From contig JAQUST010000011.1 of the NCBI GenBank assembly GCA_028710495.1, forward strand, positions 1 to 53,864: 53,864 bases of DNA, given 5' to 3'. This document shows, in pieces, positions 1,726 through 25,557 of this stretch (its first letter is position 1; each line of letters opens with the position of its first letter). The notes beneath the pieces were generated by a model. It was not told the DNA's origin and searched no databases. It worked only from the letters and a program-made list of their open reading frames with translations. Source of the DNA: Clostridia bacterium (GTDB lineage: Bacteria; Bacillota; Clostridia; Christensenellales; CAG-917). A program made the position numbers and the translations under genes.

Positions 1726-2016
1726 TTGAAAATAAGTTTTAGCGATTATTGCAAAGAATCGAGTAGAGAGTATTTGATTAATGAATGGCATCCTGCGAAA
1801 AACGGGACGAATACTCCACAAAATACGGCAAAAACCAGCCGTAAGATTATTTGGTGGAAGTGTGATCATGGTCATGAATGGCAGACGCAGGCGACTTCAC
1901 GATTGTACGGTACAGGTTGCCCGTACTGCTACCGTATTAAACAGGAACAAAAAAGAATAGAGAAAGCTAGCGATATAAGGGAGCAAAATCATGCAGAAAA
2001 CGATATTAAAAAATAG
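1726..2016 (+). CDS. Small zinc-ribbon domain protein
   Basis: 96 residues from a TTG start preceded by CGGAGTG; no in-frame ATG exists upstream because of a TAA. The core reads NEWHPAKNGTNTP, then WWKCDHGHEWQ and TGCPYC: the zinc-ribbon repeat (DUF4379-like) usually found in tandem in larger proteins, here as one copy with candidate ligands Cys/His and CPYC. The charged C-terminus overlaps the start of the giant gene by 26 bp in another frame, so the giant gene's ribosome site lies inside this ORF and the two may be translationally coupled. The domain suggests nucleic-acid binding; whether this is a functional short protein or a truncated one is open. Confidence 0.6.
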   Translation: MKISFSDYCKESSREYLINEWHPAKNGTNTPQNTAKTSRKIIWWKCDHGHEWQTQATSRLYGTGCPYCYRIKQEQKRIEKASDIREQNHAENDIKK

Positions 2017-8000: not shown

Positions 8001-11000
8001 ACAGTAGCGATTATAAGATTGTTAACGAAGTAGAAATAAGCGAGACTATTTATATGGGCAAACTGCATATTAATGCCGAAAGCATGATTTCATGCCGTGA
8101 TAGCCAAATACCGGGGCGCTTTTTATTCTCATTTACTAGTAATATAAATAACAAAACTTATAATTTTTATTCGGATAATAGCGGACTTTTGAATGCACAA
8201 ATAGAATACGGAATTATTCAAGGAATGTTTGATTATTCATACACTATTACTCCTTTATCCGTTCAAGCGCAAGCATATACGAGCGGTCAAATGACACTGC
8301 GAGCTTACAAAGATACAATGGACTTTCCCGTGACTGTAATAGACTCGGTAAGGCAAACACTCCTCAGGAACGTGCTTATCGAAATTGTTGGTATAAATAC
8401 TAATTTTAGTTACAGTGGACATTCAGATGCAGAGACAGGTTTGTTTACGATACCTGAGCTTATTCCGCAAAGAACCTATAGGATAACGGTTAACGGAGAT
8501 TACGGTATAAATTACTTTAAGAGCTATACGGCAGTTATATGTCCTACCGTAGAAGAACCGAATTTGTCGGTTAGCTTGGAAATAAGGAGAGAGGGAGCAA
8601 GTCTGGATAATGTTTCGGTCATAGTTATCAAACAAATGTCAATTTCTGCCTCTCTGAAAATACTTGCGAATAAACATTCGTATACCGGTGATTACGGACG
8701 CATAGTAAGATATCTTGCCGGCGAATCTGTGCAATTAGACAGTGGCGCGGAACAGATTTTGACTGAATATTTAAAATCAGCTTATATTTACTCAAATTAT
8801 TATGTTCAATCTAAAATAATTCGCGGAGATTTGCTTTTTTCAAACGATTATCCTAATGTTTACAAATCATTAGCAAAAAATGCAGACGATATAACGCTTG
8901 TTTCATACCGATATAATCCCGATTATGACTTCGGAGACGTAAACGTCCTATTAGGCAGGGAAGAATTAACGTCGGAAAATTGCCGTTGCTTATCCTATTC
9001 GTATTCGATAGATTATTACGGTTCGGGCGATTATCAAACTGATGTAGTGCATTTTTACTCTTTCAATGGCGCAGAGAACTGTATTATAGATATTGAGATA
9101 GAAAGTGAAGCCTATCTTAACGGCAAAAAAACAGTTCCGCTTGCATCTTTCGGTACAGGTCTCGGTTCTTTCCTAATACAGCCGGTACAAGATGTGTTTG
9201 CATCAATCGAAACGGCAAGCGTGCCTACGAATTTTGCATTCCTTAACGGAATGAGTTTTATGCTTGGTTTTGCGGATATCGATTTTGCATTTGATTACGA
9301 CGAAGAAAACATGACGTTTAGCCTTTATATGGGGGCGTCAAAAGACCTATACGAGAAATCGCGCGGAATGAGCTACGGAGATATTGGCAGGCCTACGTTG
9401 GCGCAACTGCGCGCCGCAAAAGCTGCGGGACTTGGTATGGGACGAGGTCAGGCAGGTCTCGGAGTCGGACTGGGTGGAAAGATGACATTCAAGTACGAGG
9501 ATGGAGATTGGAAACTTCGAGCCGGCGAAATATATTTTAGTGTCAATGCTTCCTATAACTATACAAAGTACATTTTACTGCCGATTGTAAGCATTCCTGC
9601 CTTTTTCAGCGCTACGGTTTCGCTTGAATTGGAAACGACTATTTACTTTAATTGGATTGATGCCGAGGAATATACCGAGGTTACGGGCGATTTGGCAATA
9701 GAACTTGCTCTTGAGATAGAATGCGGTATAGGTATTAAAGGCTTTCTTTCTGCCAGCATTTATGGCAGAGCAGGAATAGAGGTAATTATTCAAATAGAAA
9801 GCGGCGCAACAAAGCTTACGCTGTATGTTGAGGGCGGAGTAAGGATACAAATAGTATTCTGGAAATACCAATATTCCTTTGGACGGGCTGAGTGGAGTAC
9901 GCAAAGTGACGGATATGTGGAAAGGGAAGCGATTATGCAGTCACTATGTCTTTCCCAGCTTAGCAACACAACGTCATATACGGGTGTAGCCGCACTTTAT
10001 AGTACATCGGGACAGCTTATGATGGGTATAGGACTTGGAGAAGACGGTGAGGCGGAAGATATCGTGCTAATTTCTAATGTATACGAGAAAAGTTCTCCCC
10101 AAATTGCCGAGCTTACAGATGGGACTAAAATGATTGCTTGGATTAATTACGACATAGTGAGAGGTGAAGATAATGCCGAGGTCATCAACTATATTTACTT
10201 TGACGGTGAGAGTTGGAGCGAAGTTGCTGTTGCTGACGAAACTATCACTGCTGATCTTGATTTGGATATAAAAGTGATTGACGGCAGTTTTGCAATAATT
10301 TGCACCGAGGTTAAGGAAGAGCTTTCACAAGGCTCAACAATATCCGAAAGGCTTTTGAAGAGCGACGTGGCAGTATTAGTATTTAATGCTGCAACTAAAA
10401 CCTTTAACAAAACCGTAATGACAAACAACCTATTTAACGATCGTCAAGTGTTGTTTGATTACGAAAGCGGCTATGGGATAGCGGTAGATTACCGTTCTGA
10501 AAATACAAATATAACGGATGATATGACGATTAACGATTTTCTTTGCGGAGAGAATGCGGACAACAAATTGTATTACAGTATTTTTAATACTTCAACAGAC
10601 AGTTGGGGCGAATTTTCTTTGTTTCAATACGCACTGCCGGCTGTATCTACTATGTCGGTTAAAATTGTGGGGGGCATAGCTTATATCGCACTTGAATGTG
10701 ACAATGACGATAACTTTGATACGACTTTGGACAGAGAGATAATGCTTTTGCAATATGTATTTGCTACAGGACAAAGTAGATTACAACAACTGACAGATAA
10801 CGTCGCTCAAGACGTGTGTCCTTCGCTTATGGAATTTAAGGGGAAAGTATTTATGGCATACAGAAGTGGTGATGACGTTAGATATTGGTACGAAAACGAT
10901 TCCTATTTCGTATGCACTCTTCCGCAAAATTATACTAATTTTGAGATGTTTGCGAGTGGAGAATACGCCGTAATGCTATTCACTATGCCTGTAGAAGGTG

Positions 11001-12808
11001 TGGCACAAGTGTTTGCAAGCGTTATGGACGGCGACTCAATGGCATTTTCCATACCTATGCAGATAACTTCTTCCGCCAAATCGGTTCGCGATCCTATACT
11101 TGCATTCTCGGGCAATGAAACATCCGTTTATTATTGTGCAGATACGTATACTCTCTTGAGCTCAAGCGGAGAAGAGTGTACATTCAGCGTAACCTCCGAT
11201 ATCGTTAGTACTGGCTTTAATCTTTCCAGTGAATTATCCATAGAGGTTTTAGAGCCCGATTTTGCGGAAATGCTACCGGGTGAGGAATATGAATTTACCG
11301 TAAGAATTTATAATAACGGCACGCTCAACGTTGTATCCCCGTGGATTAACGTTTATCTTGGCGAAACTCTTATTGCAGATACGGTTGCTGGTACAGTTTT
11401 GGGTAACGGATATTTGGACGTACTTGTTAGCATAACTTTGCCTTCGACGCGTTCGACATTAAGATTTGTAATCGGCAAGGAAAATCTAGAAGAGAATTTA
11501 GATAATAATTTTGCTGAAACCGATGTATTACTCTCGAATATTTCTATAGATAAGGATAATACGCTTACTTGGAACGAGAACGGGACGCTTAAGGTGATCT
11601 TAAGCGTAACAAACCAAGGCGCCGTTCCGATGAATAGCGTAACAATAATCGTTACTTCATATTCAAACGCTTCAATACCTTTAGCATCTTCGATTATTTC
11701 TTCAATTGCCGCAGGCGAAACGAAAATTATAAATCTGATTATAGAAAAAGAGAATGTTATCTTTAATTCGAACAACGAATTATGGCTAAAAGCTTTTGCG
11801 CTTACCGCAGATAAGGACATTTACACCGTGGGCATCGACGATTATGACGTTTCGGATAACCTGCGCAGTTTACACATAGCGCGCGCCGTTTTTGCTGACG
11901 GCAGTACGCTTGCTTTGCTGACGGAAAGTATTGATTTGGCGGTTGGCAACAACGGTTACCTCGGCATAGTTTATACGGGCGACGGCGAAGTAGGCGTGAC
12001 GTCAAGCGATCCTTCTGTGGTCGAGGTAAACGGTAACAATCTTAGCGCTCTTAAAAACGGCACCGTCACCATTATGGTATCAGACGGTTCAGTATCAAAA
12101 TCACTTCTGGTTACCGTTACAGGTCAGACGATATTTACTGTGACCTTCAAGAACAGCGATGGTACGGTAATAAGGACAGAAACGCTTGCCGTTGGTTCAG
12201 CGATAACTGCTCCGGTTGCTCCCGAAAAGTCAGGTTATACTTTCGGCGGATGGAATACTGCGGTGGCAGAAACAATGACCGGCGGAGATGCAACCTATAT
12301 TGCACAGTGGGTGCTTAGCAATCCCGTTGTAATGTCGCAAAGCGGGTACAGTGGAAAGTATGACGGCGAGGAACACTTCGTCAACGTCGAGGCAAGCCAT
12401 ACCTTGGGTAGTGTGACATATCAATGGTACAAAGGTTCAATAAGCAGCGAAAACATAATAGAAGGGCAAAACGGCGCAACACTTTCCGTTGAGAACTCGT
12501 CAGATAGTGGTACGTATTATTGTCGCATATCCTATACGGACGGAGAACAAACCACATTCACCGATAGCGAGGCTATTGAGGTAAACATAACTGATATAAT
12601 AATGACCGGCGGCGCAATAGCAGGTATGACGATAGGTACAATACTTTTGCTGGCAATTGCCGCATATATTGTTCTTTACGTTGGTTGGAAGAAAAAAAAT
12701 AAAAAGTCACCTGCCTTTTTGGTTACAACTTTCAGGAAAGTGAATAAATTAATGTTCAAAACCGAGTTAAATGATATAGAAAAATCAGCAGAAACAAGTA
12801 AGTTTTAA
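1991..12808 (+). CDS. Giant multidomain cell-surface protein, Calx-beta/CARDB/Big2/InlB-repeat, TM-anchored
   Basis: 3605 residues from ATG 1991 (AAGGGA upstream). Residues 22-43 form a signal segment followed by a candidate AFA cleavage site near residue 53. Much of 60-1900 is beta-rich Calx-beta-like units: GTAVYGEDYI near 1330 and NAVYGRDYLPENLTLTF near 1815 are the typical strands. Two FG-GAP/VCBS-like calcium loops (DINDDGIKE, DLKGDGFPD) lie at about 1610-1690. A carboxypeptidase-regulatory-like fold lies near 2110-2180, a glycine-rich hydrophobic stretch near 2450-2640, a propeller-like part (YFDGESWSE, FNTSTDSWGEF) near 2670-3070, two CARDB-like domains near 3085-3295, Big2 near 3315-3377, an InlB_B repeat (GYTFGGWN) near 3382-3440 and an Ig-like domain. 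A membrane helix (about 3538-3565) and a basic tail of about 40 residues close it; there is no LPXTG. Probably an adhesin or extracellular binding scaffold. Partner unknown. CG dinucleotides look more frequent than in neighbours. Confidence 0.85.
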   Translation: MQKTILKNRDILHKSESQISIKIIIIAIFMLMGIMVIGATMFVPGQYEETAFAEGDEPLDARAKIGFSTENYNYNEFYIEENGGAVTVRVYVSEVQTVDIPFTLTETRYEAEDALFVFQDRYTLPASSSYTDITFYQIAQAESGSDVRMSDIFIHCDTDTVTIADVEYYGENEPYDDDYLAIVYDKDGESELIVEQLPFRSYETDCTISSRLVRAGAITSDVDIYYNIKDYDPENTKELVFENYNSVINFGANERNKTFELNFIDNDRLNLREAYELELTAIHGVSKIFDLNYRRYLEEEEILCMDFAIHDDEPLSDKYVARAQYYQPGETDPAFQVGEGGQLDVHVVLSGLRDMPLTAFRLYYSIEAYSTAVYSEDYIIVGNYSHSNNLGYIDAPAGEEYYIADLKINVLDDAIFNGTRTVYVKFFINGRSDILLQPLDTVRIEITDNEILPDNNTLSWDLTGLYNCCGVYEDNTLTINENYYDRENYIIGIDTDYHGTAPLNIPVRFEDVTATNGIDYSQESTYTLLTFMPFYGDNRYGIDINLINNFYFSGTRRLKVTIIGDGLTPGITLSGSAVLYIDIVGRVKDDYSFIEYTQEEIDDIFSIGKKESLTFQLKRLETVAESTYLDLTRGQQGAFIEGTHIAADLFPYEVVWAENETQKTITFEFLQDWNDTNSAAGFITCLDGNMMPFDIVYGDNQRYSVPITLYMSNSAACYYFPGSDMLSLIQYEYLYSSDSILRIPVTRELLSKTSANTSVSYHLTFDYYKTEQLILSSNVAEIGTHINNLSGTLYFYGAETTKYITVTVPDTVKMAYGSKYVNLVLSEPSDETYLLYNWDYAGKFSLVQIKITNDITPILTYGDLTTTTSEDGGFETTVIDALEYEGKECDSFRVELIPYETDETPYQTGLYYAMDINLYSVYDLSTVGVEVFGNGTKLESISITPFIYEYTDGSGSHQVTYNYANVLHVNLYDDNPYASFTLRYSEIYLEGLQFISTNLLIKTYNQYLMNGWQTYEKQLFLNACGADAEVNVSITPASLVSEGETNVQAGDNVYLTVTRSSDDSGASTMFFRSIAYGVKSFAASADATYYFEPLDTFVVFEPYERSKTVAFVTRDNRPQGTEWDSAASAALIRLFNYYDTNEIYGELTVNVCEEWSVTLINAEVQLLTDYVNIHKRSGDPYDPITVKFIFDKTYEANIEFNISGLDARLGNMTAILPAGQTEIIHSFTINENDFTASSEVLYLNMTGALITLFGDAELKLSVPEGMKVNVYSEMISSQKFHAGVPDVLSINEDNQGYISLEIIANRSEYPSTWKDVNAFVTLGGTAVYGEDYIIKYDGKGNNNTFDLSTGIVVIYRLYEKSTIKVYPIDNNLNEGDKTIELTVLDYCYGHAAYPETLIFALTDNEYFGDVGIETSESNIQKTITLSRKNHTVCDLPLNYVVEELSGVYGIDYRINTKNSSVLEKNGVLTFNGDLSYIYLYVETLTEIGNRATFNFRISVDKDTLFSIITNNVFVSLRNIFEGGEFTARTAKTDSQLNKWPGNYTDFLLDYTEYYSSYSSGAKIKVNSQNFEGVTEDVYLDFNPDGLTYISASGRSGKYAVPSGISPNHWYDINDDGIKELIFVANLDSCFGGASELASTGLCGVYALDLVSGNYTLIFALDSTMASRHLDIYINDLKGDGFPDVVVFSTPWADRVFRRNGSNILYIVDNTNGMFTIENVYDGNAVINGTNMTLYSVIVTNKYKNYDRNYIEVSYYSHTDRFLGLDYGTVIELSAEENAHFIYCEGANYGIEGTNFVLTVNNVTGAAGTATLVFRSDNAVYGRDYLPENLTLTFAQGEYVKNVTLVTLNNNIPTDELYIYFYLESDDFNVGVNNNLCISVIDASVVNKGVAYTVLEGFDSSYTNSEYITGDSAAFSLDTLTINGIRCIATSNDRYDVRFSVRFGNSTWTDEDNDGLIAVTGLQNIYLSSDNPHYIYIDVEFLYEGTNTAISRKSFSAWYYYYDANSSDYKIVNEVEISETIYMGKLHINAESMISCRDSQIPGRFLFSFTSNINNKTYNFYSDNSGLLNAQIEYGIIQGMFDYSYTITPLSVQAQAYTSGQMTLRAYKDTMDFPVTVIDSVRQTLLRNVLIEIVGINTNFSYSGHSDAETGLFTIPELIPQRTYRITVNGDYGINYFKSYTAVICPTVEEPNLSVSLEIRREGASLDNVSVIVIKQMSISASLKILANKHSYTGDYGRIVRYLAGESVQLDSGAEQILTEYLKSAYIYSNYYVQSKIIRGDLLFSNDYPNVYKSLAKNADDITLVSYRYNPDYDFGDVNVLLGREELTSENCRCLSYSYSIDYYGSGDYQTDVVHFYSFNGAENCIIDIEIESEAYLNGKKTVPLASFGTGLGSFLIQPVQDVFASIETASVPTNFAFLNGMSFMLGFADIDFAFDYDEENMTFSLYMGASKDLYEKSRGMSYGDIGRPTLAQLRAAKAAGLGMGRGQAGLGVGLGGKMTFKYEDGDWKLRAGEIYFSVNASYNYTKYILLPIVSIPAFFSATVSLELETTIYFNWIDAEEYTEVTGDLAIELALEIECGIGIKGFLSASIYGRAGIEVIIQIESGATKLTLYVEGGVRIQIVFWKYQYSFGRAEWSTQSDGYVEREAIMQSLCLSQLSNTTSYTGVAALYSTSGQLMMGIGLGEDGEAEDIVLISNVYEKSSPQIAELTDGTKMIAWINYDIVRGEDNAEVINYIYFDGESWSEVAVADETITADLDLDIKVIDGSFAIICTEVKEELSQGSTISERLLKSDVAVLVFNAATKTFNKTVMTNNLFNDRQVLFDYESGYGIAVDYRSENTNITDDMTINDFLCGENADNKLYYSIFNTSTDSWGEFSLFQYALPAVSTMSVKIVGGIAYIALECDNDDNFDTTLDREIMLLQYVFATGQSRLQQLTDNVAQDVCPSLMEFKGKVFMAYRSGDDVRYWYENDSYFVCTLPQNYTNFEMFASGEYAVMLFTMPVEGVAQVFASVMDGDSMAFSIPMQITSSAKSVRDPILAFSGNETSVYYCADTYTLLSSSGEECTFSVTSDIVSTGFNLSSELSIEVLEPDFAEMLPGEEYEFTVRIYNNGTLNVVSPWINVYLGETLIADTVAGTVLGNGYLDVLVSITLPSTRSTLRFVIGKENLEENLDNNFAETDVLLSNISIDKDNTLTWNENGTLKVILSVTNQGAVPMNSVTIIVTSYSNASIPLASSIISSIAAGETKIINLIIEKENVIFNSNNELWLKAFALTADKDIYTVGIDDYDVSDNLRSLHIARAVFADGSTLALLTESIDLAVGNNGYLGIVYTGDGEVGVTSSDPSVVEVNGNNLSALKNGTVTIMVSDGSVSKSLLVTVTGQTIFTVTFKNSDGTVIRTETLAVGSAITAPVAPEKSGYTFGGWNTAVAETMTGGDATYIAQWVLSNPVVMSQSGYSGKYDGEEHFVNVEASHTLGSVTYQWYKGSISSENIIEGQNGATLSVENSSDSGTYYCRISYTDGEQTTFTDSEAIEVNITDIIMTGGAIAGMTIGTILLLAIAAYIVLYVGWKKKNKKSPAFLVTTFRKVNKLMFKTELNDIEKSAETSKF

Positions 12809-15530: not shown

Positions 15531-16481
15531 ATGGAAACCCTCAAAATAAAAAAACTCGATAGAAATGTGGTCGCTGACTATATCTCAAAAATTGTTGAAA
15601 AACAATACAACAGTAAAGTTTTGTCAGTGAATTATTTAGGAGGGGGGTCTTTTGGCTTAGCATACAAAGTTATGCAGGATTGTGAGCCATCGGCGCTTGT
15701 TGCCAAAGCGTATAAAGTTGAAAATATGCACAAAAAAGAGGCTTATGCGCTCAAAACCTTGGGCGAACATACTCAAATTAAATATCCTGCCGTATACTTC
15801 CTAAATGACGCGACCGATGAATTTCCAATCGATTGTATGTGCATGGAATTTATCGAGGGAAAAGACGCATTTACCAATTTTGCGTTATTATTTAAACCTA
15901 AGAATCAAAAGATAGCCTTTGCTGAAAGTGTTGTGAACTCTATGCTTGAGATACACAGTTTCACCAACCCCAAATTCGGTGATATAGAAAATCCAAGCTA
16001 TGACAACTGGCTGGATTATTATAAGCCTTTTGCTACGGAAATACTTGAAACATCAAAAAAACTACGTGATGGCGGCAAATTGGATGGTTATATTGTGGAA
16101 ACTATGGAAAAGGCGTATGCAAAATTTGACATAATCTTTGCTGAGGAGGTCAAGCAAGGAAGCCTAATTCATGGCGACTTGAATGTAATGAACATTATGG
16201 TGAAAAAGCCTTTTACCGTAGCGGCAATTATTGACCCGTTGGAATCGAAATTTGCAGATAGAGAATACGACCTGTTTCAGCTCAACAATTTGACGGGCAA
16301 GAAATTTGGATTGTACAAGCTGTACAAAGAGAAATATCCTGTCAGCAAAAACTGCGATATTAAATGTGCTTTTTACGGTTTGTGGAATGAGGTGTATTGT
16401 TTTATCAAGGCCGAAACATTATTCAAAATTATAATGAATCCGCTTGTTAAGAATATGAAAAAACTGCTTGAGAGGTTGTAA
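15531..16481 (+). CDS. APH/choline-kinase-like phosphotransferase
   Basis: 316 residues from ATG with AAAAGGAC upstream. The kinase-like fold is visible: glycine loop GGGSFG (37-42), an ATP-anchoring lysine in LVAKAYK (Lys59), hinge MCMEFIEG, catalytic HGDLNVMN (His214, Asp216, Asn221) and the metal-binding Asp235 in AAIIDPLES. The arrangement is that of aminoglycoside phosphotransferases, fructosamine kinases and choline kinases, which phosphorylate hydroxyls of small molecules. Substrate unknown; a single gene with its own promoter and no antibiotic-gene neighbours argues against calling it a resistance enzyme. A second, more distant member of the same fold lies at 21039-21788. Confidence 0.8.
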   Translation: METLKIKKLDRNVVADYISKIVEKQYNSKVLSVNYLGGGSFGLAYKVMQDCEPSALVAKAYKVENMHKKEAYALKTLGEHTQIKYPAVYFLNDATDEFPIDCMCMEFIEGKDAFTNFALLFKPKNQKIAFAESVVNSMLEIHSFTNPKFGDIENPSYDNWLDYYKPFATEILETSKKLRDGGKLDGYIVETMEKAYAKFDIIFAEEVKQGSLIHGDLNVMNIMVKKPFTVAAIIDPLESKFADREYDLFQLNNLTGKKFGLYKLYKEKYPVSKNCDIKCAFYGLWNEVYCFIKAETLFKIIMNPLVKNMKKLLERL

Positions 16482-16705: not shown

Positions 16706-17590
16706 TCATAAATTAGTATCTGAGTACTCAAATCCTGCTCTTTCGCTTGTCAAGTCGAATATGACTTTTTCATCTTTTACAAGTAGATAGCGCACTTTGC
16801 AAGAAAGGCTTTCCCGTATCGTTCTTGCCATTAAGCCATTTATCGGCGCTTTTAAGTCGTGAGCGCGCTCTGTTAGCTGCTCAGCAGAAAAAACGAGATT
16901 TCCTTGTTTTATTTTCGCGTAGTTTTGTTTATTCTCTATAATTTTTGCACCTAGATATGTTGCCAGTCGGTATTCCTTCCCTTGAAAATAAATAGAACAG
17001 ATAGTACCTTCAAAATTTATAAAAAGTATCTTTATTGTAGCAATAGAAAGCATAATTGTGCAGTCATTTTCGCCTTTAATATTGCATTGAGTCCACAAAT
17101 ACTTTTTAGGGAAAGATTTTCCACTGTCTTTTTCCAGATAACCGATGCCATCGTTGAATTGATATTTTTTTCCATTTATCTCTAAAGTTCCGTTTACTGA
17201 ATGTTGAAAGCTTAAAAGCCAGTGCCGACACTGTAAAAATGGAACGGTACATAAAGGACCCATAACATCGTATTTTGGCGGTTTCAAGGCCGAATAAGCC
17301 AAATTTCCTTTTATTTCTATATCATCAGTTTTGATATTTACGTTTATGCCTCTTTCAGAAAATTCACTGTTCCCAAGTTTAATAAACAGATTTTTATTGT
17401 CAAGATAAAATTCATTGAACAAATATTCGAAATTGTATGATGAATCATCAGTGATAACTTGCAACGAGCCAGAAAGCTTACCTTTGTTGTCTATATGATA
17501 TGAAGGTATAAAAGCGATAGTATTATTCTCGTTCATATTTTTAAAATACCAACCGGCGAAGTAATTCTTTTTGTTTACAATATTTTTCAT
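16706..17590 (-). CDS. Tocopherol-cyclase-family protein
   Basis: 294 residues from ATG 17590. The signature elements are YFAGWYFKN near the N-terminus, MGPLCTVPFLQCRHWLLSFQ in the middle, then GIGYLEKDSGKSFPKKYLW and WTQCN. Those are the hallmark of the tocopherol cyclase family (PF14249-like), lipocalin-like beta barrels. Plant members close the chromanol ring of vitamin E; firmicute relatives occur in organisms without tocopherol synthesis, so their substrate is unknown, possibly a lipid. No signal peptide is evident. It stands alone, convergent with the kinase gene, with no clear ribosome site and no clear terminator in the 224-bp gap. Confidence 0.75.
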   Translation of the reverse strand: MKNIVNKKNYFAGWYFKNMNENNTIAFIPSYHIDNKGKLSGSLQVITDDSSYNFEYLFNEFYLDNKNLFIKLGNSEFSERGINVNIKTDDIEIKGNLAYSALKPPKYDVMGPLCTVPFLQCRHWLLSFQHSVNGTLEINGKKYQFNDGIGYLEKDSGKSFPKKYLWTQCNIKGENDCTIMLSIATIKILFINFEGTICSIYFQGKEYRLATYLGAKIIENKQNYAKIKQGNLVFSAEQLTERAHDLKAPINGLMARTIRESLSCKVRYLLVKDEKVIFDLTSERAGFEYSDTNL

Positions 17591-17706: not shown

Positions 17707-17735
17707 TTGACAATGTAAGAATAAATAGATATTAT
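17707..17735 (+). promoter_or_regulatory. Promoter of the rex operon
   Basis: TTGACA (17707-17712), 17-bp spacer, TATTAT (17730-17735). An alternative -10, TATAAT (17733-17738), has a 20-bp spacer. It is overlapped on its downstream side by the inverted repeat at 17737-17760. Confidence 0.7.
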
Positions 17736-17736
17736 A

Positions 17737-17760
17737 ATATCGATAACAAAGTATCGATAT
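17737..17760. promoter_or_regulatory. Candidate operator in the rex leader
   Basis: Perfect inverted repeat ATATCGATA (17737-17745) and TATCGATAT (17752-17760) with 6-bp spacer ACAAAG. The octamer TATCGATA appears twice, 14 bp apart. The stretch 17732-17749 also resembles a half-conserved Rex site because it ends in ATAACAA. Position over the transcription start suits repression; whether Rex or another factor binds is unknown. Confidence 0.6.
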
Positions 17761-17778
17761 GTCATATAAGGAGAAAAA

Positions 17779-18411
17779 ATGGAAGGTATTTCAAAAGAAT
17801 CGTTGCAGAGATTGCCAACGTATTTAAGATATCTGAATGAATTGCACTTGAATGGTATAGAGAGTGTATCATCCACAACAATTGCAGATAGATTTAAGCT
17901 GAACCCTGTGACAGTAAGAAAGGATTTGGCATTTATAAGCGAAGACGGTGGCAAGCCGAAGACTGGCTTTTCTGTGGCTGATTTAGTTGCTGAAATTTCA
18001 GAATTTTTGGGTTACAACAACACTCAAGACGCAGTTTTAGTCGGTGTTGGAAAACTTGGAAGCGCATTGCTTGGCTATAAGGGATTCAGCAATTACGGAT
18101 TAAATATAGTTGCTTCATTCGATTGCAAAACTGATATCCAAATTGATTCTACTAAAAGAGAAATCAACAACATAAGTATGCTACCTGATTTGGTAAAACG
18201 ACTAGGTGTGAATATAGGCATTATAACTGTACCCGCAGAAAGTGCGCAGGCAGTTTGCGATTTGATGATAAACTCCGGCATAAAAGCAATTTGGAACTTT
18301 TCGCCTACACATTTGATTACTCCTGATAATATAGCAATAAAAAATGAGGATATGGCAGCATCGTTGGCGGTGCTTTCACAAAGATTGACAGCAATACTAA
18401 AAAACGAATAA
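17779..18411 (+). CDS. rex: Redox-sensing transcriptional repressor Rex
   Basis: 210 residues from ATG 17779 with AAGGAG upstream. Residues 1-75 are the Rex winged helix (LQRLPTYLRYLNEL, NPVTVRKDLAFIS). Residues 80-200 are the Rossmann domain with GVGKLG (89-94), the nucleotide loop. Rex binds DNA when NAD+ is high and releases it when NADH builds up, derepressing NADH-consuming fermentation genes. Being first in an operon whose next gene is adhE fits autoregulation together with its classical target. A candidate operator lies in its own leader. Length and both domains match the family. Confidence 0.96.
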   Translation: MEGISKESLQRLPTYLRYLNELHLNGIESVSSTTIADRFKLNPVTVRKDLAFISEDGGKPKTGFSVADLVAEISEFLGYNNTQDAVLVGVGKLGSALLGYKGFSNYGLNIVASFDCKTDIQIDSTKREINNISMLPDLVKRLGVNIGIITVPAESAQAVCDLMINSGIKAIWNFSPTHLITPDNIAIKNEDMAASLAVLSQRLTAILKNE

Positions 18412-18427
18412 AACGAGGAGATTATAT

Positions 18428-21028
18428 ATGGACAAAACTTTTATAGTCAAAGATGAAGAAACACTTGAACGCAGATTAGAAGATGTGCGGAAAGCGCAAA
18501 AAGAATTTTCAAAATTTTCGCAGGAGAAAGTGGATGCAATATTTTTTGCAGCGGCAATGGCAGCCAATCAGGCGCGTATCCCACTTGCAAAAATGGCTGT
18601 TGAAGAGACGGGTATGGGGATTGTTGAAGATAAAGTAATAAAAAACCATTATGCCTCCGAGTATATTTATAATGCTTACAAAGACACAAAAACTTGTGGA
18701 ATTATTGAACAAGACAATGCCTATGGAATTACTAAAATAGCTGAACCAATAGGTATTATTGCTGCCGTTATTCCAACAACCAATCCAACGTCAACTGCTA
18801 TTTTCAAAGCTTTGCTTGCGCTAAAAACAAGAAACGGTTTGATATTCAGTCCGCATCCAAGAGCAAAAAAATGTACAATAGCAGCTGCAAAGATTGTTCT
18901 TGATGCGGCAGTAAAGGCTGGAGCTCCCGAAAATATTATAGCTTGGATTGACGAGCCTTCAGTGGCTTTATCCGGTTTAATAATGAAAGAAGCTGACATC
19001 ATTCTGGCAACAGGCGGCCCTGGAATGGTTAGAGCCGCATATAGCTCAGGAAAACCTGCAATCGGTGTTGGCGCGGGAAACACACCTGCTATTATTGACG
19101 ATTCGGCGGATATATTGCTTGCGGTCAGTTCTATTATACATTCAAAGACTTTTGATAACGGTATGATTTGCGCATCAGAGCAATCCGTCATTGTGCTTGA
19201 AAAAGTTTACAAAGCGGTAAAAGAGGAATTCACAAAGAAAGGTTGTTATTTTTTGAATCCCGAGGAAACCGAAAAGGTAAGAAAAACAATAATCATAAAT
19301 GGGGCTCTCAACGCGAAAATAGTTGGTCAGTCAGCATATAAAATTGCGGCACTTGCAAATGTAACTGTACCTGAAAATGCAAAAATTTTGATTGGCGAGG
19401 TTGAGAGCGTGGAACTTCAAGAGGAGTTTGCGCATGAGAAGCTGAGCCCAGTGCTTGCAATGTACAAGGCAAAAGATTTTGAGGATGCAGTTTCAAAAGC
19501 AGAACATCTTATTGCGGACGGTGGATATGGGCACACTTCATCATTGTATGTTGATGTGTTGAATAACAAGGACAAGATAAGCAACTGGGAAAACCGTATG
19601 AAAACTTGCCGTTGCTTGATAAACACTCCGTCTTCACACGGCGGAATCGGCGACCTTTACAACTTTAAGCTTGCACCTTCTTTGACATTGGGTTGCGGTA
19701 GTTGGGGTGGCAACAGCGTCAGTGAGAATGTCGGGGTAAAGCATCTTATCAATATTAAAACAGTAGCTGAAAGGAGAGAAAATATGTTATGGTTCCGTGC
19801 GCCTCAAAAGGTATATTTCAAGAAAGGTTGCTTGCCTGTTGCTTTGGATGAATTGAAAACAGTAATGGGTAAGAAGAAAGCATTTATTGTCACGGACTCA
19901 TTCCTTTTTAACAACGGATATACAAAGCCAATTTCTGATAAACTCGACCAAATTGGTATTATCCACACAACTTTCTACAACGTTGCTCCAGACCCGACTT
20001 TGGCTTGTGCAAAAGAGGGCGCAAAGGCAATGAATGAATTCAAACCGGATTGCATTATCGCTTTGGGTGGAGGCTCAGCAATGGACGCCGCAAAAATTAT
20101 GTGGGTTATGTATGAACATCCTGAAGTGAATTTCATGGATTTGGCGATGAGATTTATGGATATAAGAAAGAGAGTTTACACATTTCCGAAAATGGGCGAA
20201 AAGGCATATTTTATCGCAATTCCAACATCAGCAGGTACAGGCTCAGAGGTTACACCTTTTGCAGTTATTACCGATGAAGAGAGCGGTGTAAAATATCCTC
20301 TTGCAGACTATGAATTGATGCCGAATATGGCAATCGTTGATGCAGATATGATGATGAATGCGCCAAAAGGTTTGACATCTGCTTCTGGTATTGATGCAGT
20401 AACGCACTCTTTGGAAGCCTATGCTTCATTGCTAGCTACTGATTATACAGATGGTTTGGCATTAAGAAGTTTGAAAATGGTGTTTGAATATCTTCCACGC
20501 GCTTACGAAAACGGCACGAATGACCCTGTTGCCAGAGAAAAAATGGGCAATGCGGCTACTATGGCAGGTATGGCGTTTGCGAATGCGTTTTTGGGTGTTT
20601 GCCACAGTATGGCGCATAAACTCGGAGCGTTCCATCATTTGCCACACGGCATAGCGAATGCATTGATGATAAATGAAGTTTTAAGATTTAACGCTGAGGA
20701 AGTACCAACAAAAATGGGAACATTCTCACAATATGATCATCCGCACACTTTGGCAAGATATGCAGAAGTTGCCGATTATTTGGGCGTAAAAGGAAAAAAT
20801 GACAGCGAAAAATTGGATAATCTTATCAAAGCTATTGAAGAGCTGAAAACAAAAGTGGGAATCAAGAAAACAATCAAAGATTACGGAATTGATGAAAAAG
20901 ATTTCTTAGACCGCTTGGATGCTATGGTTGAGCAAGCGTTTGACGACCAATGCACAGGTGCAAATCCCAGATATCCGCTTATGAGTGAAATCAAGCAGAT
21001 GTATTTGAATGCCTACTACGGCATATAG
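18428..21028 (+). CDS. adhE: Bifunctional acetaldehyde-CoA/alcohol dehydrogenase
   Basis: 866 residues, the family length; ATG after GAGGAG, 16 nt behind rex. The N-terminal half is the CoA-acylating aldehyde dehydrogenase with catalytic Cys248 in NGMICASEQ and the glycine loop GVGAGNTP (213-220). The C-terminal half is an iron-dependent alcohol dehydrogenase: GGGSAMDAAK (547-556) for NAD, PTSAGTGSEVTPF, and iron ligands Asp656, His660, His726 and His740, three residues offset from the E. coli protein. It reduces acetyl-CoA to ethanol, consuming two NADH, in cytosolic spirosomes. It is the textbook Rex target. The gene continues into the sensory hydrogenase genes with 10-nt spacing. Confidence 0.97.
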   Translation: MDKTFIVKDEETLERRLEDVRKAQKEFSKFSQEKVDAIFFAAAMAANQARIPLAKMAVEETGMGIVEDKVIKNHYASEYIYNAYKDTKTCGIIEQDNAYGITKIAEPIGIIAAVIPTTNPTSTAIFKALLALKTRNGLIFSPHPRAKKCTIAAAKIVLDAAVKAGAPENIIAWIDEPSVALSGLIMKEADIILATGGPGMVRAAYSSGKPAIGVGAGNTPAIIDDSADILLAVSSIIHSKTFDNGMICASEQSVIVLEKVYKAVKEEFTKKGCYFLNPEETEKVRKTIIINGALNAKIVGQSAYKIAALANVTVPENAKILIGEVESVELQEEFAHEKLSPVLAMYKAKDFEDAVSKAEHLIADGGYGHTSSLYVDVLNNKDKISNWENRMKTCRCLINTPSSHGGIGDLYNFKLAPSLTLGCGSWGGNSVSENVGVKHLINIKTVAERRENMLWFRAPQKVYFKKGCLPVALDELKTVMGKKKAFIVTDSFLFNNGYTKPISDKLDQIGIIHTTFYNVAPDPTLACAKEGAKAMNEFKPDCIIALGGGSAMDAAKIMWVMYEHPEVNFMDLAMRFMDIRKRVYTFPKMGEKAYFIAIPTSAGTGSEVTPFAVITDEESGVKYPLADYELMPNMAIVDADMMMNAPKGLTSASGIDAVTHSLEAYASLLATDYTDGLALRSLKMVFEYLPRAYENGTNDPVAREKMGNAATMAGMAFANAFLGVCHSMAHKLGAFHHLPHGIANALMINEVLRFNAEEVPTKMGTFSQYDHPHTLARYAEVADYLGVKGKNDSEKLDNLIKAIEELKTKVGIKKTIKDYGIDEKDFLDRLDAMVEQAFDDQCTGANPRYPLMSEIKQMYLNAYYGI

Positions 21029-21038
21029 GAGGATTATT

Positions 21039-21788
21039 ATGAATTTAGATAGAATAATTGCAGTCAGAACAAGCAAAACAATTTATAAAGATGGTGACAA
21101 GGTTATCAAGGTGTTTGACAAGGATTTCTCAAAGTCGGATGTTCTCAATGAAGCTTTGAATCAGTCTCGTGTTGAGGAGTCAGGTTTGAATGTCCCGAAA
21201 ATTTTGGAAGTTTTTATGCTTGACGAAAAATGGGCAATAGTTATGGAGTTCATCAAAGGTAAAACCCTTGACAATATAATGGCTGAAAATATAGAAAAGG
21301 AAGACGAATATCTCAATATGTTTGTGGATTTGCAGTTGGAAATGCATTCAAAAAGAGTCCCATTGCTTAATAACTTGAAGGACAAAATGGATAGAAAAAT
21401 CGAGGAAAGTAAATTTGATGCGACTATTCGCTATGAATTGCACACAAGGCTTGGCGGAATGCCAAAGCATACCAAACTCTGCCATGGCGATTTCAATCCT
21501 AGCAATATTATCATAGGCGAAGATGGGAAGAATTATATTATTGACTGGTCGCACGCAACTCAAGGGAACGCAAGCGCAGATGTCGCAAGAACGTATCTGT
21601 TGTTTAAGTTGTCAGGAAAAAATGAACTTGCAGAGAAATACATGAAACTATTCTGCAAAAAGAGCGACACGGCAAGGCAATACATTGAAAAATGGTTGCC
21701 AATAGTTGCAGCATCACAATCCGTAAAAGGAAAGCCGGAAGAGAAGGAATTTCTTTTGAAATGGGTTGATGTTGTAGACTTTGAATAG
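21039..21788 (+). CDS. Small APH-like kinase in the rex-adhE-hydS operon
   Basis: 249 residues from ATG 21039, which has AGGAGG immediately upstream; an in-frame upstream start at 21009 lies inside adhE and is unlikely. Visible motifs are an MEFIKGKTL hinge, catalytic CHGDFNPSN (His149, Asp151, Asn156) and IIDWSHA (Asp169), the aminoglycoside-phosphotransferase arrangement. It is shorter than most APH enzymes. The target may be a small molecule or, given the PP2C phosphatase four genes downstream, a protein; that is speculation. Spacing is 10 nt behind adhE and 9 nt before the ferredoxin gene, so it is part of the same transcript. Confidence 0.8.
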   Translation: MNLDRIIAVRTSKTIYKDGDKVIKVFDKDFSKSDVLNEALNQSRVEESGLNVPKILEVFMLDEKWAIVMEFIKGKTLDNIMAENIEKEDEYLNMFVDLQLEMHSKRVPLLNNLKDKMDRKIEESKFDATIRYELHTRLGGMPKHTKLCHGDFNPSNIIIGEDGKNYIIDWSHATQGNASADVARTYLLFKLSGKNELAEKYMKLFCKKSDTARQYIEKWLPIVAASQSVKGKPEEKEFLLKWVDVVDFE

Positions 21789-21797
21789 GAGGTTCTT

Positions 21798-22043
21798 ATG
21801 ATAAAGTTATCAGTTTGTATCGGCACTACTTGCCACTTAAGAGGGTCAAGAGAAATAATAGAGCAACTACAAGAGTTAATACACGCCAACGGATTGAAAG
21901 AAAAGGTTGATATGTCAGGCAAATTTTGTTTGGGCAGATGCGAAGAAAATGGCGTTAGTGTAAGTGTTGACGGAGAAAATTTCGCTCTTACTCCCGACAA
22001 TACGCAAGCTTTTTTTGAAAAAGAAATTTTAGGGAGAGTTTAA
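21798..22043 (+). CDS. Thioredoxin-like [2Fe-2S] ferredoxin 1
   Basis: 81 residues after TAGGAGG. Cysteines 7, 12, 44 and 48 (C-x4-C and C-x3-C) are the four-cysteine pattern of thioredoxin-like [2Fe-2S] ferredoxins and the NuoE/HydC C-terminal domain. The opening SVCIGTTCHLRGSREII is typical. Such single-domain proteins accompany HydS-type hydrogenases and probably pass electrons to or from them. It lies 1 nt upstream of a paralogue. Confidence 0.9.
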   Translation: MIKLSVCIGTTCHLRGSREIIEQLQELIHANGLKEKVDMSGKFCLGRCEENGVSVSVDGENFALTPDNTQAFFEKEILGRV

Positions 22044-22044
22044 T

Positions 22045-22293
22045 ATGAAATTGCTTGTGTGTGTTGGTAGTTCTTGTTATTTGAAGGGTTCTTATGATGT
22101 TATTCAGAAATTACAAGAATTACTAAAAAAATATGAAGTTGAAGACCAAGTTGACCTCAATGCAAGTTTCTGTTTAGGATTTTGTGCAAGCGGTGTCACA
22201 CTGAAGTCCGACGAAGTATTTTTACACCATGTAAATCCCGAAAATGTCGAGGATGTATTTTTGAAGGAAGTATATCCATTATTGAACAAATGA
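22045..22293 (+). CDS. Thioredoxin-like [2Fe-2S] ferredoxin 2
   Basis: 82 residues after AGGGAGAG. Same fold as its upstream neighbour, with cysteines 6, 11, 43 and 47 and the shared pattern SCYLKGSYDVIQKLQELL. The pair is similar in length and motif order but diverged, indicating an old tandem duplication rather than a recent one. It may have a different potential or partner. Ten nucleotides separate it from the hydrogenase gene. Confidence 0.9.
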   Translation: MKLLVCVGSSCYLKGSYDVIQKLQELLKKYEVEDQVDLNASFCLGFCASGVTLKSDEVFLHHVNPENVEDVFLKEVYPLLNK

Positions 22294-22303
22294 GAGGTGC
22301 ATT

Positions 22304-24016
22304 ATGACAAGTTGTTTGGATTTCCAAAATGCGAATTGCAAAAACTGCTATAAATGCCTGAGAAGTTGTCCTGTGAAAGCTATTGCCGTGACAAATCATC
22401 AAGCGCGAATCATAGATGAAAGATGCATTCTTTGCGGAACCTGTACACACGTATGCCCGCAAAACGCAAAGCATGTGCACAGCGATAAGGACGAAGTGTA
22501 TACGATGTTGTCATCTGGAGAAAAAATTATTGCGAGCGTTGCTCCGTCATTTATCTCCAGCTTTGGCATAAGGGATTTTTCGCTGATGAAAATTGCGCTA
22601 GGCAAGTTAGGTTTTTTTGATTCTGCAGAAACCTCTGTCGGAGCAAATCTCGTTGTAAAAAAATATAACGAGTTGCTTTTGGAGAAGGAATATAAGAATT
22701 TTATTACTTCTGCTTGTCCTGCTGTCAACACATTAATTCAGCTGTATTATCCAAAAGCGCTACCTTATCTCGCTCCAGTGGATTCGCCGATGCTAGCCCA
22801 TACAAAAATATTGAAATCACAAAATAAGGATGCAAAAATTGTATTTATAGGTCCTTGTATTGCCAAAAAGAAAGAAGCGCAACAAAGTGGTATTATTGAC
22901 GCTACGCTTACTTTTGAAGATTTGGCAGAAATGCTTGAGGAAGAAGGGATTATTTTTGATGATATCGCGAAACTTTCAATTGAAAAACCAAGCATTGAAA
23001 TCAACAAAGCAAAATTTTTCCCAATCAGTAGTGGCATAATAAAATCCTTCAACATTTTACCGAGCGGGTATGAATATGTAGCCATCGACGGAGTTCAAAA
23101 GTGTATGGAGATTTTGGAAAACATAGAAAGTCTTTCTGGTATGTTTTTAGAACTTAATGCTTGTGATTACTCTTGTGTCAATGGACCGTGCAGCTTGACA
23201 AAAAAGGGTTCTGCTATAAAAGCAAATTCTGACATAAGAAACTATGTCAATCTCGATTTAATTCACACAATTTATAGCCCGAAGCTTGAGCCAAGCGTTG
23301 TTGATATCACGACAATATATCCTCGTATAAAAACAAATAGTATGCCTGTTTCAGAAAAGAGAACCAATGAGATTCTTGCTATGACGGGCAAGCTAAAGCC
23401 AAGTGATGAATTAAATTGCGGCGCTTGCGGTTATTCCTCTTGCAGAGAGAAGGCTTGGGCTGTTGCAAATGGCTATGCTGAGCTCGAAATGTGCTTGCCA
23501 TACATGCGCGAGCGTGCGGAGACAATGGCATATGAAATTTTGCAGAACAGTCCAAATGGCATTGTCGTGCTTGACAGCGATTTAAAATTAATTGAAATCA
23601 ATGCAAAAGCAATCAAAATATATGGAGTGGATGGCACAAACTATAAGGGAAGAGATTTTGTGGATTTTGAAAACCCAACTGATTTTGTACTCGCACAACT
23701 TGAAAATAAAAACTTAATAAGAAAGAAAATTTATATCAGCAAAACAAAGACCTATGTTGAAATGACAATAATAATTCTCAAGGAACACAATATTTTGTTT
23801 GGGTTTTTGACTGATATTACGGAAGAAGTCAGTTACAATGAAAAACTTAGCAAGGTGAGAAGCGATACCATTGCAACTACGGATGAAGTTATCAAAAAAC
23901 AGATGAGAGTTGCCCAGGAAATTGCATCTCTGCTTGGGGAAACCACTGCCGAAACAAAAGTTGCGCTCTTAAAATTGAAAAAGGTATTGTCTGAAGCAGA
24001 AAAAAAAGGAGAGTAA
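22304..24016 (+). CDS. hydS: Sensory (group C, HydS-type) [FeFe]-hydrogenase with PAS domain
   Basis: 570 residues after GAGAGGTG. Domain order: two [4Fe-4S] ferredoxin clusters (Cys12, 15, 18, 22 and Cys41, 44, 47, 51); H-cluster domain with L1 TSACPAVN (Cys138), L2 GPCIAKKKEA (Cys185) and L3 NACDYSCVNGPC (Cys287, Cys291); a Fes-type four-cysteine motif NCGACGYSSCREKAW (Cys372, 375, 380, 397); a PAS domain (about 408-505); and a C-terminal helical tail (505-570) that could be a coiled coil. All four H-cluster cysteines are kept, but the catalytic proton-relay cysteine of TSCCP is Ala137. That matches the low-activity sensory HydS group, thought to detect H2 or redox state and signal through PAS. 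The following phosphatase starts 1 nt after its stop. Confidence 0.93.
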   Translation: MTSCLDFQNANCKNCYKCLRSCPVKAIAVTNHQARIIDERCILCGTCTHVCPQNAKHVHSDKDEVYTMLSSGEKIIASVAPSFISSFGIRDFSLMKIALGKLGFFDSAETSVGANLVVKKYNELLLEKEYKNFITSACPAVNTLIQLYYPKALPYLAPVDSPMLAHTKILKSQNKDAKIVFIGPCIAKKKEAQQSGIIDATLTFEDLAEMLEEEGIIFDDIAKLSIEKPSIEINKAKFFPISSGIIKSFNILPSGYEYVAIDGVQKCMEILENIESLSGMFLELNACDYSCVNGPCSLTKKGSAIKANSDIRNYVNLDLIHTIYSPKLEPSVVDITTIYPRIKTNSMPVSEKRTNEILAMTGKLKPSDELNCGACGYSSCREKAWAVANGYAELEMCLPYMRERAETMAYEILQNSPNGIVVLDSDLKLIEINAKAIKIYGVDGTNYKGRDFVDFENPTDFVLAQLENKNLIRKKIYISKTKTYVEMTIIILKEHNILFGFLTDITEEVSYNEKLSKVRSDTIATTDEVIKKQMRVAQEIASLLGETTAETKVALLKLKKVLSEAEKKGE

Positions 24017-24017
24017 T

Positions 24018-25178
24018 ATGGAACTCTTTCTTGAAGATGGTTTCACTTCTATAAACAAAAATGGCGAGGAGCTATGTGGTGACAATGTTGCGTCTTGCGT
24101 AATAGATGACTACACAACTTTAGTGCTTGCCGACGGCTTGGGGAGCGGAGTGAAGGCCAACATACTTTCTATACTTACATCGAAGATTTTGTGTACTATG
24201 GTTTCAAATGATATTGATATGGAAGAATGCATTGAAACTATGATTCAAACACTTCCCGTATGCAAAGAAAGAGAGGTGGCATACTCAACATTCTCGGTCA
24301 TTCATGTGAACAAACAAGGCGTCGGGTATATGTTTGAGTTCGACAATCCTCAAGCCATTTACTATCATGATGGACAATGCCAAGACTTTGAGCGTGAAGA
24401 ACTTGATATATTAGGGAAAAAAGTCTTCAAGACGAATTTAGCACTAAAACCTAATGATATAGTTATTGTAATGTCAGACGGGACAATACACGCAGGTATT
24501 GGAATGATACTCAATTTCGGTTGGCAGCGGAAGGAAATTATAGATTATCTAAACAAAGCTATAAAAACAAATATGTCGGCAAGATGCGTATCGTGTCTGC
24601 TCACAAGAGCGTGCAATGATTTGTATTTAGACAAGCCGGGGGATGACACCACCGTCGCTGCTGTGCGTATAAGAGAAAAGTGCACAGTTGATATAATGGT
24701 AGGACCTCCCGTTGACAAAGAAAAAGACGATTTTTATATAAATAGGTTTTTGTCCGGCGAAGGTAAAAAAGTGGTTTGCGGCGGCACAAGTTCTATTATA
24801 GTTGCGAAACACTTGAACACCGAAATAAAAACCAACTTTGATTTTCCTGATCCTGACGTACCGCCAATAGCCACAATTAAGGGCATAGACCTCACGACAG
24901 AAGGTGTTTTAACCATTAGAAAGCTATTATATATTTCCGAAAAATATATATCTCCAAATGACCTCACTCCCAAAAATTTTGTAAAAAAGGATGGCGCGTC
25001 TTTGCTTGCTGATATGCTGTTTGAAAAAGCAACACATATCAATTTTTATGTTGGTCAAGGAATAAACACAGCTCATCAACATTTGCCAATTGATTTGACA
25101 ATGAAGCTTAAGCTTGTGGAGGCAATAGCAGAAAACCTAAAGAAGATCGGCAAGGTGGTAACAGTTCAATATGACTAA
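24018..25178 (+). CDS. SpoIIE-type PP2C serine/threonine phosphatase with C-terminal domain
   Basis: 386 residues after AAAGGAGAG. PP2C metal-binding aspartates are all visible: Asp22 in CGDN, Asp39 in LADGLGSG, Asp154 in VMSDGTIH and Asp209/210 in PGDDTTVAAVRI. Residues about 225-386 form an additional domain (MVGPPVDKEKD, KKVVCGGTSS, INFYVGQGINTAHQHLP) that I do not recognise beyond its occurrence with HydS neighbours. Such phosphatases usually reactivate an anti-anti-sigma protein or another phosphoprotein. No RsbV or RsbW-like gene is present in the window, so the substrate must be encoded elsewhere or be an operon product. It is the last full gene of the operon; no strong terminator follows. 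Confidence 0.9.
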   Translation: MELFLEDGFTSINKNGEELCGDNVASCVIDDYTTLVLADGLGSGVKANILSILTSKILCTMVSNDIDMEECIETMIQTLPVCKEREVAYSTFSVIHVNKQGVGYMFEFDNPQAIYYHDGQCQDFEREELDILGKKVFKTNLALKPNDIVIVMSDGTIHAGIGMILNFGWQRKEIIDYLNKAIKTNMSARCVSCLLTRACNDLYLDKPGDDTTVAAVRIREKCTVDIMVGPPVDKEKDDFYINRFLSGEGKKVVCGGTSSIIVAKHLNTEIKTNFDFPDPDVPPIATIKGIDLTTEGVLTIRKLLYISEKYISPNDLTPKNFVKKDGASLLADMLFEKATHINFYVGQGINTAHQHLPIDLTMKLKLVEAIAENLKKIGKVVTVQYD

Positions 25179-25257
25179 AGCTAGAGAATATATGACTAAA
25201 GTTAGAGAAGAGTTGTCTCGAAAAAAATGTGTAAAGAGAATTAAATTAGTAAAATGA
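25171..25257 (+). CDS. Possible 28-residue ORF with internal 21-bp duplication
   Basis: ATG 25171 overlaps the phosphatase stop and reads MTKAREYMTKVREELSRKK and a basic end, stopping at 25257. The first 21 bp are nearly repeated (25171-25191, 25192-25211), so the second ATG restarts MTKVREEL. There is no obvious ribosome site apart from coupling to the upstream stop. It could be a tiny protein or the stump of a lost operon gene. Confidence 0.25.
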   Translation: MTKAREYMTKVREELSRKKCVKRIKLVK

Positions 25258-25557
25258 CTTATAAGTTTTATTTTCAAAATTTTTGATTACTTTTTAAGAA
25301 AGTTTATATTTGTGTTTTTTTGCTTTTTAAGGGCACTAACTTTTCCATATACGGATGCCTCTATGTTTATTGAATTCGCTACTATAGAAATAAGCGAATT
25401 TTCATCGAACTGATGAAACTGTTTCAGAAAACCGTTCTCGTAACATACATAAGCAAGATATTGTATCACAAAACACCGAATGCATAATAAAGCTATATCA
25501 AGTTGCTGTTCATATCGAAAATATTATTGAAATTCTCAATATTTATTCTTAATAAAG
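25258..25557. other. Gap between convergent genes
   Basis: No supported gene. A 60-codon minus frame at 25287-25469 has no ribosome site and no recognisable motif. An AT-rich imperfect hairpin around 25519-25544 may act as a weak terminator for the minus-strand acyltransferase. Confidence 0.45.

Follow-up and report, generated by a model that had tools for sequence, protein, structure and literature searches.

Background

This study concerns an operon within a stretch of 53,864 nucleotides (hereafter the window; contig JAQUST010000011.1 of assembly GCA_028710495.1, a Clostridia bacterium), in which rex, the gene of a redox-sensing repressor, is followed by adhE, a kinase gene, two ferredoxin genes, the hydrogenase gene hydS and a phosphatase gene. 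Its closest described counterpart lies on plasmid pRUMAL01 of Ruminococcus albus 7 and consists of rex, adhE, genes for a phosphotransferase, two (2Fe-2S) ferredoxins, an FeFe hydrogenase and a SpoIIE-family phosphatase, and finally hydA2, the gene of a ferredoxin-dependent 4Fe-4S hydrogenase. This cluster serves as a model system for hydrogen transfer between rumen species. Expression of its eight genes is 111-fold lower when an H2-consuming partner is co-cultured, a response known from R. albus only, and HydS has been proposed as the H2 sensor (PMC6776011). The idea that reductant disposal in R. albus depends on H2 is credited to Zheng et al. 2014, as cited in PMC5707799. In Thermoanaerobacterium, deletion of the hydS homologue hfsB leads to elevated adhE and rex transcripts and to more ethanol. 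So far the strong H2 response of R. albus has been put down to HydS, with no known path leading from it to transcription.

Rex proteins usually bind the operator TTGTGAA-N4-TTCACAA (PMC6391272). In Thermotoga maritima Rex, DNA is contacted by Gln46, Arg48, Lys49 and Ser52, with Arg60 and Gly61 reaching into the minor groove, and the glycine-rich wing has been termed "strictly conserved" (PMC8836258).

A preliminary description of the window had named the seven genes, all on one strand, and the open reading frames (ORFs) are indeed found at these places with agreeing Pfam and NCBIfam matches. It had also regarded the operon as a dense unit uniting an NADH sensor, AdhE, a sensory-type hydrogenase and a PP2C phosphatase, which is supported by the conserved order: a search for the same arrangement recovered it in R. 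albus 7 and in many other Clostridia. The operon is therefore not novel, as the R. albus cluster has been published; its genes are of ordinary kinds, and it is well conserved. Likewise, the suggestion that reductant disposal is set according to H2 holds as an idea already published for R. albus, though not as a new one, and given the H2-sensor proposal for that organism and the effects of the hfsB deletion it comes close to the published hypothesis.

Results and discussion

A variant Rex and its putative operator

What sets this locus apart is the way in which it may be controlled. We consider it probable, if by no means assured, that it represents an R. albus-type operon for ethanol formation, responsive to H2 and NADH, which has lost its terminal hydrogenase gene and in which a variant Rex would act on an operator of its own.

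The window Rex is the only protein of its genome (a 1.57-Mb draft, 91% complete) to match PF06971; it matches Rex structures in the PDB with values of 1e-26 to 3e-32, and both the winged-helix and the NAD-binding domain are present. The Arg-Lys-Asp of the recognition helix is kept, the wing reads GGKPKTGF, and related Rex proteins show Pro-[Lys/Arg] at the same wing position. A palindrome of two TATCGATA half-sites separated by six nucleotides is located at the operon promoter; in the whole genome the pattern ATCGAT-N5..11-ATCGAT occurs at this single place, and the expected count of the palindrome in the window is 0.00. The changed wing together with the changed rex-associated palindrome forms coherent evidence which points to an altered DNA-binding specificity of this Rex.

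To place the operon among its relatives, 80 loci with HydS homologues were taken from named genomes and their genes identified by BLAST with the proteins of the window and of R. albus; counts of adhE, kinase and operator refer to the 61 loci with at least 4.5 kb of upstream sequence. The loci share descent and are not independent, so that all p-values are to be read as guides. The operator was found in 15 of the 19 loci with rex and in 2 of the 42 without (Fisher p 6e-9, with the loci sharing descent). Rex loci lacking it were three from Bacteroidales and one on a cut contig, while the operator-bearing hydS loci without rex (L048 and L052) belong to genomes that hold an operator-bearing rex elsewhere. 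A blind scan of 150 relatives returned 17 exact operator sites and none of the reversed control pattern. Fifteen scanned loci were read, and 11 of them carry this rex type directly downstream; the others comprise an adhE operon (L120), an fd-hydS operon (L119), an Fe-ADH gene (L129) and one unexplained case. The operator precedes nearly every Clostridial rex of the window type, and we take this to point to a Rex subfamily which has an operator of its own and would directly control the operon. Such a rewired Rex-operator pair seems to be new, although Zheng et al. 2014 could already have mentioned a Rex site.

When up to three mismatches were allowed, operator matches in the window genome showed no excess over the control, and no wider regulon was seen; canonical Rex boxes (TTGTTAA-type) gave 30 matches there vs 61 in the control. 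In three loci (L127, L131 and L086) genes for a lactate/malate dehydrogenase-like protein are headed by this type of Rex and operator, indicating that the regulon of this Rex type varies among genomes. The new operator may serve as a search tool for this regulon in Clostridia, which a search for the canonical box would miss.

The loss of hydA2 is the second new element. Of the 27 loci that carry the kinase and extend at least 3.5 kb downstream, the window alone is without the gene, and it is present in all six (6/6) additional operons of relatives which were fetched by means of the operator. No remnant of hydA2 was detected 3' of the operon, and it was not found elsewhere in the window genome, where PF02906 matches are confined to HydA of HydABC, a 425-residue hydrogenase-like protein of the same cluster, and HydS. 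Since the genome is 91% complete, its absence from the other parts of the genome is likely but not certain.

From these observations the following mechanism can be proposed. The variant-wing Rex would bind TATCGATA-N6-TATCGATA, which spans approximately -4 to +18 relative to the one good promoter, and would thereby block the whole operon, rex included. Upon build-up of H2 the bifurcating HydABC, which is present in this genome, would no longer reoxidise NADH, the NADH/NAD+ ratio would rise, Rex would let go, and AdhE would be made and burn NADH to ethanol. For R. albus, the conserved operator that goes along with rex would likewise offer a simpler route, from H2 via NADH and the variant Rex to the operon. 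HydS, judging from its family, would sense H2 or the redox state at its H-cluster and relay a signal by way of its iron-sulphur (FeS) and PAS domains to the PP2C phosphatase encoded alongside, giving a second level of control through a phosphoprotein. The kinase would belong with AdhE.

Several points weigh against this proposal. The link between Rex and operator is one of co-occurrence, and the three Bacteroidales Rex proteins lacking such an operator have the same wing. At many other loci, that of R. albus among them, the operator is placed at about -61, upstream of a promoter with a TTCC element, where it may act differently. The elevated adhE and rex transcripts upon hfsB deletion in Thermoanaerobacterium indicate that HydS can influence transcription. 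Finally, the genome is an incomplete draft.

HydS and the phosphatase

HydS of the window is 41–42% identical to HydS of R. albus and Monoglobus. The H-cluster cysteines C138, C185, C287 and C291 are conserved, the accessory FeS domains Fer4_10 and PF04060 are present, and the C-terminal PAS domain (PF00989) scores above cut-off. Catalytic enzymes carry Cys, Met and Met at the positions of C299, M353 and M497; by position in the three motifs, HydS has Ala, Gly and Asn instead. In the phosphatase all PP2C metal ligands are kept, D22, D39-G40, D154-G155 and D209-D210 being invariant, and its AlphaFold2 (AF2) model (predicted local distance difference test, pLDDT, 88.5) matches SpoIIE/RsbU-type phosphatases in Foldseek.

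In the published model the main H2 switch is HydS, which acts via the phosphatase (or a kinase) on a downstream regulator which sets transcription of the cluster, with Rex being secondary. This has been proposed for R. albus, it accords with the changes in adhE and rex transcripts and ethanol yield of hfsB-deleted thermophiles, and the genes for HydS and phosphatase adjoin in nearly all surveyed loci. However, the target regulator required has no known candidate. The sole stand-alone STAS protein detected in the window genome is SpoIIAA-like and sits in a spoIIAA-spoIIAB-sigF/spoVA sporulation cluster (another STAS match lies within a long protein of the window), and 3 of 9 Bacteroidales genomes with a HydS-phosphatase pair gave no STAS match. 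In addition, the operator would account for an H2 response through NADH without HydS. We therefore regard HydS as main switch as a tentative possibility and rather unlikely. If the variant Rex is indeed the transcriptional route, HydS and the phosphatase must do something else, probably post-translational. Partner switching of the classical STAS type was rejected as a universal output, because some HydS genomes lack a STAS match.

HydS and phosphatase of the full operons fall into two types, with about 56%/70% and 41%/45% identity to the window proteins. Two loci from one genus (L133, 4649-8053; L134, 4689-11374) carry different types at the same chromosomal site, recognizable by shared typA-like and IMP dehydrogenase-like neighbours; the HydS-phosphatase pair hence moves as a cassette, which does not include the kinase. 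Several Bacteroidales drafts (L012-L026) contain HydS-phosphatase pairs about 55%/68% identical to those of the window, suggesting either transfer between phyla or binning errors. In L009 (4135-12340) a HydABC cluster includes two HATPase_c-like proteins, one of which is RsbW-like (140 aa) and adjoins a hydrogenase-like protein; it is possibly a serine kinase linked to hydrogenases and as such a candidate antagonist of the HydS-linked phosphatase.

The kinase and its probable tie to AdhE

The kinase occurs in all 22 loci with this adhE and is absent from 34 of the 39 without it; the remaining five carry the kinase without adhE, as do two more loci with shorter upstream sequence. A strict dependence on adhE is excluded by these cases, and what we propose is a coupling rather than an obligation. 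Compared with the window, the full operons show 75–84% identity for adhE and 65–71% for the kinase, with little variation, and the kinase stays at about 69% regardless of the HydS/phosphatase type. Within R. albus-type loci, mean identity of the kinase to its R. albus counterpart is 75% alongside adhE and 55% in the absence of adhE (Mann-Whitney p 1.4e-4), the corresponding values for HydS being 71% and 69%. Co-occurrence and identity pattern together argue for a functional tie between kinase and AdhE, and the kinase probably acts on AdhE or on something that AdhE needs. This assignment, suggested by comparison of loci, is a further new element.

The catalytic residues K24, E38, H149-G150-D151, N156 and D169 are invariant in 31 homologues, and the AF2 model (pLDDT 91.9) has its top Foldseek matches in APH(3'). 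Beside APH, weak matches to RIO/Bud32-type models were obtained; in R. albus the enzyme goes under the name of a Ser/Thr protein kinase. PADLOC matches proved to be weak kinase-fold matches to PD-T4-6 and similar systems, and a role in defence was dismissed.

In the preliminary description the kinase was seen as antagonist of the phosphatase, the one phosphorylating and the HydS-controlled other dephosphorylating one shared regulator. Both enzymes look catalytically intact, and a few loci hold the kinase beside the HydS-phosphatase pair without adhE. On the other hand, the sensor occurs without the kinase at 34 of the 61 loci, the nearest solved folds are APH-type small-molecule kinases, and kinase similarity follows adhE and not the phosphatase type: the kinase is present with adhE, diverged without it and indifferent to the type of phosphatase. 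As stated, the claim is thus unsupported, and a shared regulator appears distinctly unlikely. An extended version of our own proposal, which we consider similarly doubtful, would have the Rex subfamily and its operator dedicated to this one operon, while an AdhE-specific kinase and the H2-controlled PP2C phosphatase would reversibly phosphorylate AdhE, so that NADH would set ethanol flux at the level of transcription and H2 would do so after translation.

Layouts of operator and promoter

Two layouts can be distinguished. In the window and in L121, L123, L019 and L115 the operator lies 2-3 bp past a promoter of the TTGACA/TATAAT type, a placement suited to a roadblock. At many other loci, R. 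albus included, 14 or 29 nt separate it from a TTCC-N18-TGN-TATAAT promoter on its downstream side, and the dyad is then near -61. The latter arrangement was seen upstream of rex in L109, L116, L127, L130, L041, L084 and L089, with fixed distances and diverged spacers.

Many activators bind at -61. Rex might accordingly be an activator in R. albus-type promoters and a repressor only in the window clade, the logic having been inverted by the moved operator. The fixed distances of operator to TTCC and of N18 to the extended -10 over diverged spacers would fit, as would the location of the window-clade operator around the start of transcription. However, classical Rex leaves DNA on NADH binding, so that in R. 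albus an activator would respond with the wrong sign, and repression from upstream is equally possible; we judge this inversion improbable.

That another regulator binds the TATCGATA operator, such as the LysR encoded upstream in R. albus-type loci, is highly improbable and was rejected: lysR adjoins many such operons and L129 combines lysR, operator and Fe-ADH with no rex nearby, but the operator occurs in 0 of 7 lysR-only loci vs 6 of 10 rex-only loci (window included), it lacks the T-N11-A pattern, and the TTCC promoter is common to lysR-only loci, so that LysR more likely goes with that promoter. TTCC promoters without operator were observed at the lysR-only loci L056, L062 and L064.

Anatomy of the operon and neighbouring genes

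The features of the operon are compiled in Table 1. The preliminary description had given gaps of 1–17 nt; the dense spacing stands, the exact range being 1–16 nt (16, 10, 9, 1, 10 and 1 nt from rex through the phosphatase), and all seven genes are preceded by a Shine-Dalgarno-like sequence. For the kinase, ATG 21039 was taken as start because AGGAGG precedes it and homologues agree; the longer start at 21009 overlaps adhE. The paired ferredoxins are NuoE-like proteins. Promoter-like matches in the region were near chance (47 vs 38.5 +/- 6.3 in shuffles), as were terminator-like ones (6 vs 8.0 +/- 3.0), the best promoter-like site being the one just 5' of rex. A pattern and fold search gave no strong terminator at the 3' end, and no RNA element reached the gathering threshold in the window.

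Table 1. Features of the operon in the window
Feature	Position	Strand	Remarks
Promoter TTGACA-N17-TATTAT of operon	17707..17735	+	11/12 consensus matches; same geometry in L121, L123, L019, L115
Degenerate third repeat AATAGATA	17724-17731		Beside operator 17738..17759
Predicted operator TATCGATA-ACAAAG-TATCGATA	17738..17759	+	2 bp 3' of -10; kept upstream of rex in relatives
rex, redox-sensing repressor, variant wing GGKPKTGF	17779..18411	+	NF003994 258.7 bits (cut-off 130)
adhE, bifunctional acetaldehyde-CoA/alcohol dehydrogenase	18428..21028	+	NF010378 1403 bits (cut-off 951)
APH-fold kinase	21039..21788	+	PF01636 1.4e-13
fd1, thioredoxin-like [2Fe-2S] ferredoxin 1	21798..22043	+	PF01257 2.9e-06
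fd2, thioredoxin-like [2Fe-2S] ferredoxin 2	22045..22293	+	PF01257 4.5e-07
hydS: 2x[4Fe-4S], H-cluster domain, C-terminal FeS domain, PAS	22304..24016	+	PF02906 3.5e-44, PF04060, PF00989
SpoIIE-type PP2C phosphatase, ~165 further C-terminal residues	24018..25178	+	PF07228 1.2e-12 over residues 30-218
Operon end, hydA2 missing	25179..25557	.	No hydA2 remnant; no strong terminator; next gene convergent

Divergent from rex lies a gene for a tocopherol cyclase-like protein (16706-17590, minus strand; PF14249, 2.2e-18), which is unusual for a fermentative Clostridium-like genome. A second APH/fructosamine-kinase-like protein is encoded at 15531-16481 (plus strand), 1.3 kb 5' of rex and outside the conserved operon. 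Further upstream, one ORF of 3605 aa (1991-12808, plus strand) shows weak matches to Listeria-Bacteroides repeat, Calx-beta and Ig domains and is probably a giant surface protein.

Comparison with known systems

Canonical Rex proteins (T. maritima, Thermus, Thermoanaerobacter) share the winged helix and the NAD-binding domain with the window Rex, and the recognition-helix Arg-Lys-Asp is also that of Thermus Rex. The canonical wing has Arg-Gly where the window Rex has Pro-Lys, and instead of TTGTGAA-N4-TTCACAA the putative operator of the window type is TATCGATA-N6/7-TATCGATA. HydS of T. maritima, a group C [FeFe] hydrogenase, resembles the window HydS in its PAS domain, in Ala at the C299 and Gly at the M353 position; at the M497 position it has Ser in place of Asn. 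SpoIIE/RsbU PP2C phosphatases share the catalytic domain and the metal-binding aspartates with the window phosphatase, which differs from them in having no neighbouring STAS/anti-sigma partner, no N-terminal regulatory domain and an extra conserved C-terminal part.

The hfsABCD genes of Thermoanaerobacterium, compared by the descriptions in the papers and not by sequence, likewise combine a sensory PAS-hydrogenase (HfsB) and a serine phosphatase (HfsC) with a link to adhE expression; they include the HydA2-like HfsD, yet form an operon of four genes without adhE, rex or kinase.

With R. albus 7 the order of the first seven genes is identical, at identities of about 40% for HydS, 45% for the phosphatase and 75% for adhE. 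There, TATCGATA-N7-TATCGATA lies upstream of rex and of the promoter, whereas in the window the spacer is N6 and the operator lies 3' of the -10. R. albus retains hydA2, and lysR upstream; the window operon, with neither of them and with its simple roadblock promoter, is a stripped-down version of this system, to which the variant Rex would add a direct transcriptional route independent of HydS.

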